This document shows, in pieces, positions 26,976-28,031 of a stretch of 58,212 nucleotides of DNA. Origin of the DNA: Deltaproteobacteria bacterium. Its GTDB lineage: Bacteria > Desulfobacterota > Binatia > UBA9968. Below the pieces are notes generated by a model. That model searched no databases and was not told where the DNA came from. It saw only the letters and a list, made by a program, of their open reading frames with translations. The position numbers were made by a program, and so were the translations under genes. The number at the start of each line of letters is the position of its first letter. Position 1 is the stretch's first letter. The stretch spans positions 1 through 58,212 of the forward strand of contig SHYW01000017.1 in the NCBI GenBank assembly GCA_009692615.1, in the 5' to 3' direction.

Positions 26976-27728
26976 ATGGAACCCGATCGCCTCGCCGCGC
27001 TCATCGCCGACTTAGATCATCCCGACAAACCAACCCTGCGCGCCGCGGTCGACGAACTGATTGTTCTCGCCGCCAATTCAGAAGCAGTGAGAGCAATTCT
27101 CGACCAGCGACTCAGCGAACCCGATCATAGAAATTACTGGCCGGTGGCTTACGTCTTAGGACATTTGCCGAAACCGTCCGGCGTCGCAATTCGCACATTG
27201 CTGCAAACCTTAGATCATCCCGAGCCCGACATCCGCTGGGCGAACTCCTTACTATTGGTGAAAATCGCCAAGCGTGAAGGGTCGGTTTTTAGTTTGCTAA
27301 TCGACCTGTGCCGCAACGGCACGGCCAATCAACGAAGAATGGCGGTCTACTGCTTGCGCGATTTGGAATTGAATGACGCCGCCAGTCTGCAAGCCATCGT
27401 CGACTTGCTGTCCGACACCGACGCGACGGTCCGCGTCGCCGCAACAACCAGTTTAAAAACTCGTCGTGATGAGAACAAACGCGTGCGCCAGGCGTTGCTC
27501 GATAGTTATTTGAACGATGAAGATATAAAAGTCCGCAACGCCGCCGCCGTGACGCTGGCGAGTTTCGGCGCGCCGTCGGAAGATTTTTTGCGCGCTTTGA
27601 ATGAAGCGGCAAAAAGCAACGATAACCAAGCTAGAAAAGCGGCTACCGTCGCTCTCGGTTTATTAGAAAAATGGGGAATCGGAAGTGTCACCGCGGAGCC
27701 GCTGAGGACGCCGAGTAAAGAATCTTAG
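26976..27728 (+). CDS. HEAT-repeat protein
   Basis: 250 residues of tandem alpha-helical repeats, e.g. LQTLDHPEPDIRWANSLLL (about 72), IVDLLSDTDATVRVAATTSL (about 140) and LNDEDIKVRNAAAVTLASFG (about 178). The repeat spacing is about 35 residues. Such proteins are scaffolds or lyase/regulatory partners. No partner gene is adjacent. The last 14 or so residues (TAEPLRTPSKES) are encoded by one arm of the CTCTGTG/CGGAG word repeat, so the C-terminus has been shaped by repeat insertion. Confidence 0.8.
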   Translation: MEPDRLAALIADLDHPDKPTLRAAVDELIVLAANSEAVRAILDQRLSEPDHRNYWPVAYVLGHLPKPSGVAIRTLLQTLDHPEPDIRWANSLLLVKIAKREGSVFSLLIDLCRNGTANQRRMAVYCLRDLELNDAASLQAIVDLLSDTDATVRVAATTSLKTRRDENKRVRQALLDSYLNDEDIKVRNAAAVTLASFGAPSEDFLRALNEAAKSNDNQARKAATVALGLLEKWGIGSVTAEPLRTPSKES

Positions 27729-27803: not shown

Positions 27804-27857
27804 AAAAAAAAGAAGGCCCGCTTCAATCGGAAGCTTGCGCGACCGTTGAAGCGGGCC
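27804..27857 (-). terminator. Strong intrinsic terminator of the small RNA
   Basis: On the minus strand GGCCCGCTTCAA at 27857-27846 pairs perfectly with TTGAAGCGGGCC at 27826-27815. An inner CGG/CCG closes the loop, and TTC followed by eight T comes next. No gene lies downstream on this strand before the convergent HEAT gene, so the transcript simply ends here. Confidence 0.9.
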
Positions 27858-27924
27858 CACTAGGTGGTCTGAGGGGGTTTACCAGGCTCTAGGCCGGAAC
27901 CCCATCAAGAAGTCCGCCTAGAGC

Positions 27925-27969
27925 CTAAGTCTCAGCCACCTCACAGTCAGTACATAAATAATCAATCAT
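27925..27969 (-). CDS. Mini-ORF, 14 residues (MIDYLCTDCEVAET)
   Basis: ATG at 27967-27969 with AGGAGG at 27980-27985, a 10-nt spacing that is close to optimal, and a TAG stop at 27925-27927. The peptide is acidic and has a C-T-D-C pair. It lies entirely within the structured small RNA; its last codons form one side of the outer helix and its stop lies in the inner helix. It may be a regulatory leader-type peptide or a real micropeptide. No downstream gene exists for it to attenuate. Confidence 0.5.
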   Translation of the reverse strand: MIDYLCTDCEVAET

Positions 27970-28001
27970 GTCTGGACCACCTCCTTTCCCTGCTGGATAC
28001 T

Positions 28002-28031
28002 ACTTTACGAAAAGTGGTGCAGAGCTGTCAA
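28002..28031 (-). promoter_or_regulatory. Sigma70-type promoter of the small RNA
   Basis: On the minus strand a perfect TTGACA (28026-28031) is followed after 18 nt by TAAAGT (28002-28007). An A/T-rich stretch (TTTATTTTTTAACCAATTAT region) lies upstream as a possible UP element. The start of transcription would be near 27995, just before the AGGAGG of the mini-ORF. Confidence 0.7.

Follow-up and report, generated by a model that had tools for sequence, protein, structure and literature searches.

The window analysed here is a stretch of 58,212 nucleotides, on whose minus strand a small RNA gene is predicted between positions 28031 and 27804. The promoter TTGACA-18-TAAAGT, the AGGAGG, the 14-codon ORF and the terminator that an earlier note had reported at this place were all found on that strand; the observation itself is confirmed, and the interpretation given to it is supported in part. 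The elements of the locus are the following:

28002..28031, minus strand: promoter TTGACA-18-TAAAGT (motif scan, 1 found against 0.2 expected in shuffles)
27804..27994, minus strand: predicted whole RNA, about 190 nt (RF02471 match at model positions 1-184; fold z -8.1)
27974..27989, minus strand: extended Shine-Dalgarno GGAAAGGAGGTGGTCC / GGAAAGGAGGUGGUCC, 16 nt (16 contiguous pairs with the 16S 3' tail, 11 without G-U)
27925..27969, minus strand: mini-ORF MIDYLCTDCEVAET, 14 codons (ATG at 27969; UAG stop at 27927-27925)
27937..27942, minus strand: GAGGUG, an SD-like element additional to the first, with its distance to the stop codon fixed at nine bases
27931..27940, minus strand: P1 5' strand GGUGGCUGAG, within the ORF (covariation; same helix in other clades)
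27863..27873, minus strand: P1 3' strand CUCAG-A-CCACC (covariation; same helix in other clades)
27916..27925, minus strand: P2 5' strand, its first base being the last of the stop codon (covariation in the group of the window)
27885..27894, minus strand: P2 3' strand (covariation in the group of the window)
27898..27903, minus strand: pseudoknot 5' strand GGGGUU, in the loop of P2 (covariation in the group of the window)
27874..27879, minus strand: pseudoknot 3' strand AACCCC (covariation in the group of the window)
27862..27869, minus strand: GACCACCU, 8-bp pairing with the SD in place of P1 (folding; clade-specific alternative)
27804..27858, minus strand: terminator hairpin and U tract (sequence reading and folding)
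26976-27728: gene for a HEAT-repeat protein, convergent with the RNA and ending at 27728

The RNA is predicted to start near 27994 with AGCAGGGAAAGGAGGUGGUCCAGAC-AUG, followed by the ORF, a structured segment, the terminator stem and a U tract that reaches about 27804. The AGGAGG Shine-Dalgarno (SD) is part of a 16-nt complement of the 16S rRNA tail, an element beyond those listed in the earlier note. Promoter-like elements similar to that of the window were seen by eye upstream of many homologues. The terminator stem is long and G+C-rich (27858-27846 pairs with 27826-27814 and is followed by U, minus strand); a consensus terminator scan restricted to loops of 3-8 bases, with 0 found against 0.5 expected, missed it because its loop is larger. 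The folding energy of the RNA was -96.3 kcal/mol compared to -63.05 kcal/mol for dinucleotide shuffles, and none of the 200 shuffles was as low. A single copy is present in its own genome. Downstream on the minus strand only mechanical ORFs were found, antisense to the convergent HEAT-repeat gene, in agreement with the claim that no gene follows. The description as a stand-alone structured RNA also held, with homologues across clades, a folding energy far below that of the shuffles and covarying helices, and the homologues together with the covariation rule out chance or artefact as its source.

The comparison of the window with Rfam at the gathering score gave no match. In permissive mode RF02471 (Ms_IGR-5) was matched with 27.8 bits (E 1.4e-4) over all 184/184 model positions, that is, at full length and with the consensus structure of the family, including a helix (P1) that covaries in three clades. 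The curated Rfam cut-off of RF02471 is 45 bits and, because 27.8 bits lie below it, the window RNA has to be considered a divergent homologue and not a formal member; judged from these sequence comparisons, the homology is almost certain. The cut-off was passed by G019 (49.1) and G007 (47.5), both in the taxonomic family of the window, and with the window RNA as query blastn gave E values of 1.3e-17 for G019 and 8.9e-23 for G007. At the gathering score, 8 of the 18 homologue loci scanned were assigned to RF02471 (Actinobacteria, Zixibacteria, Tectomicrobia, Methylomirabilota). The RF02471 search of 39 genomes, own included, revealed matches in 28, of which 25 are at blastn loci and 3 are without a blastn match; two matches in these 39 genomes exceeded the cut-off, both in the taxonomic family of the window, and 14 control genomes gave 0 matches.

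The window RNA shares with Ms_IGR-5 the order of elements (extended SD, UGUGAGGUG, stop-codon region, CAGnCACC, terminator) and the occurrence as one copy in nearly all genomes having the RNA. It differs in its score below the cut-off and in the one bulge of its P1; moreover, the pseudoknot has been counted in the clade of the window only, and the Rfam name limits the family to Actinobacteria, outside which the window lies. A relative in Rfam was one of the outcomes that the earlier note had set against its own reading, and the RNA is not new as a family. Homologues outside the contig, whose absence had been named in the same way, were found by blastn, by a sequence pattern and by covariance models.

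Within the parts of the open-access PMC literature covered by the search, no function is given for RF02471 or Ms_IGR-5 and no ORF is described in Ms_IGR-5; the original Ms_IGR-5 paper (Li 2013) may have such a description of the ORF. Among the matches listed for the peptide strings of the family in open-access PMC, none was a related paper by its title. As far as the available parts of the sources go, RNA-seq backs an Ms_IGR-5 transcript in S. lividans, S. avermitilis and M. smegmatis (PMC8079986, PMC8780764, PMC10454040), and Ms_IGR-5 has been catalogued as an sRNA (PMC8780764, PMC10454040). A Ribo-seq study (PMC4974804) reports that MS_IGR-5 homologues carry significant ribosomal reads in both M. 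abscessus and M. smegmatis; it cautions that non-coding RNAs get footprinted too and, in the passages available, does not state that MS_IGR-5 passes its fragment-length test.

Of 97 genomes searched by blastn with the window RNA, 29 had a match, its own genome among them (genus 5/5, family 17/25, further genomes of the order 10/10, and two weak matches at class level). A sequence pattern built from AAAGGAGGTGRTC and TGYGAGGTG, the two least variable pieces, was found in at least 119 stretches in named genomes; viral contigs gave 0 matches to it, and a phage origin has been rejected on this basis. The 149 pattern loci among the matches listed were reduced to 134 by removing 15 duplicates and to 127 by dropping seven without the stop geometry described below (L043, L055, L066, L082, L088, L128, L131), of which L066 sits at a CC2171-like match and is therefore not a chance match. 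The taxa among the matches listed, with these seven loci not counted in, are Actinobacteria, Binatota, 'Deltaproteobacteria' MAGs, Rokubacteria, Methylomirabilota, Zixibacteria, Acidobacteria, Myxococcales, Tectomicrobia, Eisenbacteria, Nitrospirota, a Planctomycetota MAG and an FCB-group MAG. Homologues thus span genomes of about ten phylum names, some of which may be incorrect since MAG labels can be wrong.

A covariance model (R1) was searched in 20 genomes of diverse loci, 17 of which had matches at E ≤1.6e-7, 2 weak ones and 1 none, with a second, weak match in one genome. Larger scans, whose tallies are lower bounds because stricter filters were applied, gave at least 74 of 198 genomes in the phylum of L031 (Nocardiopsis), with one match each, at least 6 of 118 in the wider phylum of the window (own included, three of them weak) and at least 1 of 200, weak, in the phylum of L066 (Pelagibacterium). 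With the last two counts, the RNA is therefore no universal ribosome factor. Its genomic neighbours differ between clades, and cis-regulation was discarded for this reason. From these scans a set of 32 covariance-model loci was assembled, comprising 29 of the 30 loci fetched from the 74 matches in the L031 phylum (the query locus was left out), 2 from the wider-phylum scan of the window and 1 from the RF02471 search; three of them have no GAGGTG anchor, which leaves 29 anchored loci for stop counts.

Two loci deserve separate mention. In L064 (Saccharopolyspora rosea) the mini-ORF stop is directly followed by a transposase-like frame, presumably IS630-like, and the 3' half of the RNA seems cut off; given this natural disruption by a transposase gene, the RNA is probably dispensable in that strain. 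The copy in L145, on a contig labelled as a Bifidobacterium breve MAG, resembles those of Mycobacterium, and the contig is perhaps mis-binned.

The mini-ORFs of the family have 11-19 codons. Among the matches listed, 126 of the 127 pattern loci have a stop codon nine bases (three codons) after GAGGTG (TAG in 106, TGA in 13 and TAA in 7), the sole exception being a truncated contig, and 126 of the 127 likewise have a start codon in frame close to the SD, compared to 6 and 38 for the two remaining frames. Between the SD and GAGGTG there is 1 in-frame stop, versus 68 and 107 in the other frames. The start and frame counts are fairer than the stop count, because the 7 loci were dropped precisely for a missing +9 stop; before this removal, starts were found in 129 of 134 loci against 7 and 40 in the other frames (among the matches listed). 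In the covariance-model loci, where TGY was not demanded, the +9 stop was present in 29/29 anchored loci and the start in 25/29, compared to 0 and 6. The claim of a conserved ORF was therefore borne out, with frame, start and stop kept across homologues. In L059, L179, L180, L182 and L187 there is no ATG, GTG or TTG at the expected start and ATT, ACG, CTG or ATC would be needed; a non-standard start behind so strong an SD might be possible in these loci.

The mini-ORFs have in common GAGGUG, the spacing between it and the stop codon, and the reading frame; the amino acids vary. The residue before E-V in the 32 covariance-model loci is R in 14, C in 12, V in 3, and L, Y and E in one each. CxxCEV occurs in 23 of 126 family peptides among the matches listed, 17 of these 23 being from the window's own group, and the second Cys of CxxC is replaced in 20 of the 32 covariance-model loci. 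The two Cys are thus not conserved, and the metal or redox function that had been suggested from the Cys-x-x-Cys pair was rejected. No amino-acid conservation beyond the constraint on the RNA was found, the shared part being E-V and the stop, and E-V is conserved because GAGGUG dictates both codons. The mini-ORF is real, conserved and translated-looking and, on the best reading, its translation would matter more than the peptide.

The 16S 3' end is GGAUCACCUCCUUUCU in two 16S genes from genomes in the phylum of L031. This tail was used because that of the window's own genome assembly was not found by pattern, so the pairing in this organism rests on the 16S 3' tail, which is near-universal. 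In most of the genomes examined (G000, G028, G033 and others), near-complete ones included, the pattern search did not find a 16S 3' end, which is perhaps masked, missing or different in them. In one run, with G-U allowed, 14-16 contiguous pairs with the tail were obtained in 127/127 pattern loci among the matches listed, 13 bases of this run being fixed by the search pattern; in a control with the 77 window ORFs of at least 150 aa, spurious ORFs included and the best of several starts taken, runs were of 4-7 pairs in 72, of 8 or 9 in 4 and of 11 in one. Since the pattern fixes 13 pairing bases, the covariance-model set is the fairer test, and its 32 loci show 56 differences from the perfect 16S complement, of which 50 keep pairing (22 of them at one position, R in the pattern) and 6 break it. 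When the 18 distinct 16-mers of this set are considered, 30 differences keep the pairing and 6 break it. AAAGGAGGTGRTC has one occurrence in the 5.05 Mb assembly of the window genome, and the 5' region of the window RNA matches the 16S tail GGAUCACCUCCUUUCU almost in full.

Helix P1 joins the last codons of the ORF with the downstream CAGnCACC and, in the clade of the window, encloses P2 and the pseudoknot; helix P0, between the 3' end of the SD and GGAC, was tested in Actinobacteria only. In 38 Actinobacteria, aligned in blocks anchored on motifs with CACC in the anchor and the other five P1 pairs outside it, 93.2% of the P0 and P1 cells are paired and 49 cells are changed on both sides. None of 500 shuffles reached the pairing, the double-changed cells or the covariation score and slid versions gave at most 47.9%; on weaker measures, 18/500 shuffles were as high in double-change pairs and 68/500 in further pair types. 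These rows derive from 45 loci among the first 80 listed (those of L111-L149 and L064 were not used), after removal of L049 and L080, in which no motif was located, L109, whose motif was misplaced, and four identical ones. In the group of the window, the 17 loci aligned, which leave out L014 and the nine loci from taxonomic family f3 that have a different P2 region, have 94.7% of P1, P2 and pseudoknot cells paired and 10 pairs with double changes (0/500 shuffles), with slid versions at 59.3% or less and further pair types reached by 27/500 shuffles. The pseudoknot, helix 3 of this group, has 94.0% of its cells paired and double changes in 4 of its 7 pairs. In 17 Rokubacteria/Binatia-type loci (21 minus L035 and L076, where the motif was not found, and two identical ones), P1 was paired in 88.9% of cells with 0/500 shuffles as high, one slid version reaching 77.3% and other measures being reached by 33/500 and 130/500 shuffles. 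Related sequences can beat shuffles without structure, a reserve that the slid controls answer in part.

The check for compensatory changes in two nested helices, proposed in the earlier note, was therefore positive for P1 in three clades and for P2 in the group of the window, and the covarying pseudoknot is an addition to that description. In Rokubacteria/Binatia-type loci (e.g. L058, L115, L116) a second GGUGG-like arm was seen by eye upstream of CCCAGGCACCACC, with which a local hairpin could form in rivalry to P1.

The two competing folds that had been postulated can both be drawn in the window, CUCAG-A-CCACC with the end of the ORF and GACCACCU with the SD, and the predicted minimum-energy fold sequesters the SD; the first pairing alone is family-wide. 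In 38 Actinobacteria the SD pairing has 82.7% of cells paired versus 82.2% in shuffles (134/500 as high), with double changes at one of seven pairs. At this pair (columns 11-64) 7 cells are double-changed (0/500 shuffles) and 14/38 rows are unpaired; the covariation score was reached by 5/500 shuffles, and columns 13-62 are unpaired in 32/38 rows. In the group of the window, two of the eight pairs are unpaired in 14/17 and 10/16 rows, and shuffles are uninformative because the SD strand is invariant there. A family-wide SD-sequestration switch was discarded with these data, as the pairing is at shuffle level in Actinobacteria and pairs are broken in the window's group. Long SD-complementary segments do occur in some clades: 8 bp in 6 of 125 pattern loci versus 1.6 expected (among the matches listed, the 127 loci minus L050, a truncated contig, and L064, with the insertion), 10-12 bp in 4 of 32 covariance-model loci versus 0.2, and 8-9 bp in 4 of 30 CC2171-like loci versus 1.2. 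The six 8-bp loci are L001-L003 (the window and near kin) and three actinobacteria, and the alternative fold may therefore matter in some clades, that of the window included. Of the claimed pair of folds, the ORF-end helix stood, and the SD pairing is clade-specific with little covariation. In L185, L191, L192 and L194, from the phylum of L031, a 10-12 nt anti-SD copy lies behind the ORF (e.g. GGACCACCTCCT) and complements their own SD fully.

RF02471, listed as an sRNA of Actinobacteria, thus extends to genomes with about ten phylum names, and its relatives combine a conserved translated-looking mini-ORF with an almost complete complement of the 16S tail. Few stand-alone single-copy RNAs are retained across phyla, and those that are usually serve a core machine; this complement points to the ribosome as the machine served. 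What emerges is a known family in a far wider guise, whose homology is firm and for which we infer a ribosome-centred mechanism. Engagement of the ribosome by these RNAs is probable on the conserved elements described. The unusually long SD duplex would capture a 30S subunit, which would then translate the mini-ORF. At the stop codon, GAGGUG would be separated from the P-site codon by 6 nt, which the usual SD spacing rule treats as normal, and with this spacing when the stop is in the A site a terminating ribosome could re-anchor and linger; the long element before the start and GAGGUG before the stop would thus offer two anchors to the anti-SD. The mini-ORF would be a throw-away one whose hard-wired stop places the ribosome on the second SD. 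A ribosome parked at the stop would block P1, P2 and the pseudoknot, which could form if few ribosomes are available or if they recycle quickly, and the RNA would in this way hold or count ribosomal subunits, with the peptide being incidental. The whole chain, from an RF02471 homologue through a mini-mRNA of about 190 nt with the ribosome as target to a parking site or decoy, is put forward tentatively as a real possibility, and the parking or decoy output would be its least certain step. It is doubtful that RF02471 and its relatives are, more broadly, a class of ribosome-regulating RNAs, not described in the sources covered, that captures 30S subunits through essentially the whole single-stranded 16S tail and stores or senses them as 6S RNA does with RNA polymerase.

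Other functions have been considered for the same elements. CAGnCACC is anti-SD-like and, in a trans-acting antisense sRNA, it could, once P1 opens, pair with the SDs of the mRNAs that are regulated, and the ORF would merely protect the RNA or gate P1 by translation. CACC hardly varies while the other P1 pairs covary (in Actinobacteria, with CACC-like letters in the anchor), and Ms_IGR-5 has been catalogued as an sRNA; however, this invariance is explained equally well by the GGUG partner, the segment is short and the conserved frame and stop would be unnecessary, and both forms of this role appear unlikely. Sensing of a ligand by a P1/P2/pseudoknot aptamer, with translation of the mini-ORF as read-out or shut off by the fold, would be consistent with the covarying pseudoknot, with the unpaired joins around GA and AAUnCC, which are conserved, with the predicted minimum-energy fold of the window RNA, in which the SD is hidden, and with SD-complementary segments of 10-12 nt in 4/32 covariance-model loci versus 0.2 expected. 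A downstream gene to control is absent, however, P2 has neither a constant length nor a constant sequence from phylum to phylum, and the SD pairing shows little covariation, and an aptamer is considered quite improbable.

The in-frame open ORF with its start in 126/127 loci (among the matches listed) would suit a micropeptide gene, whose peptide itself acts, perhaps via Cys, but only E-V and the stop are common to the peptides, E-V being set by GAGGUG, and the residue before it varies; we regard this function as very doubtful. The suggestion of a dual-function sRNA, a sensor or a micropeptide therefore stands as far as a structured RNA with a conserved ORF is concerned, and fails in the conserved peptide and the metal or redox role. 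Attenuators combine a short ORF with mutually exclusive pairings, as is seen here, and in leader-peptide attenuators and uORF-controlled mRNAs the translation of the short ORF selects the RNA fold. These systems resemble the window RNA in that translation would decide the fold and in the extended SD pairing, of which an S. aureus uORF is an example in the part of the source available (PMC13009471). The window RNA differs in being stand-alone: the terminator follows immediately, no regulated sense gene was found downstream, where the gene of the window is convergent, and neighbours differ between clades, which leaves a role as attenuator or leader for a gene behind it close to refuted.

If the ribosome-centred proposal is right, the nearest functional parallels would be 6S RNA and tmRNA, machinery-bound RNAs that are also stand-alone, single-copy and structured and have a core machine as target; the proposed partner of the window RNA would differ, being the 30S subunit via the 16S tail. 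No match of the window to 6S RNA or tmRNA was obtained in Rfam at the thresholds used.

A closer likeness in sequence was found in CC2171 (RF01867), an sRNA of Caulobacter whose consensus starts with GAAAGGAGGUGAUCC, the same 16S-tail complement as in the window RNA. The window scored 22.8 bits against RF01867, which does not reach its cut-off of 75. The RF01867 search in the phylum of L066 gave matches in 31 of 200 genomes, 7 of them above the cut-off, and no paper on CC2171 of Caulobacter was found in open-access PMC. A ribosome profiling study of Caulobacter reports, in the part available, that ncRNA regions are untranslated but that two earlier predicted ncRNAs are translated (PMC4117421). 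A 16S-tail complement with a short ORF at the 5' end, a criterion established here and not by Rfam, is common to the window RNA and CC2171. Most of the 30 CC2171-like loci (L212-L241) begin with GAAAGGAGGTGATCC, a short ORF stands behind the complement in 30/30 and the start codon lies seven bases after GGAGG in 29/30. Their ORFs differ from that of the window in having 14-27 codons and other peptides (MSHCHQ..., MSSDFVFQ..., MSRKVLE...), and no GAGGUG-9-stop rule was seen in these loci by eye. On the reading of RF02471 as a ribosome-regulating class, the CC2171 RNAs found in Alphaproteobacteria would represent either another branch of it or a case of convergence. The four CC2171-like loci with an anti-SD-like segment, of 8-9 nt, are L212, L228, L236 and L240.
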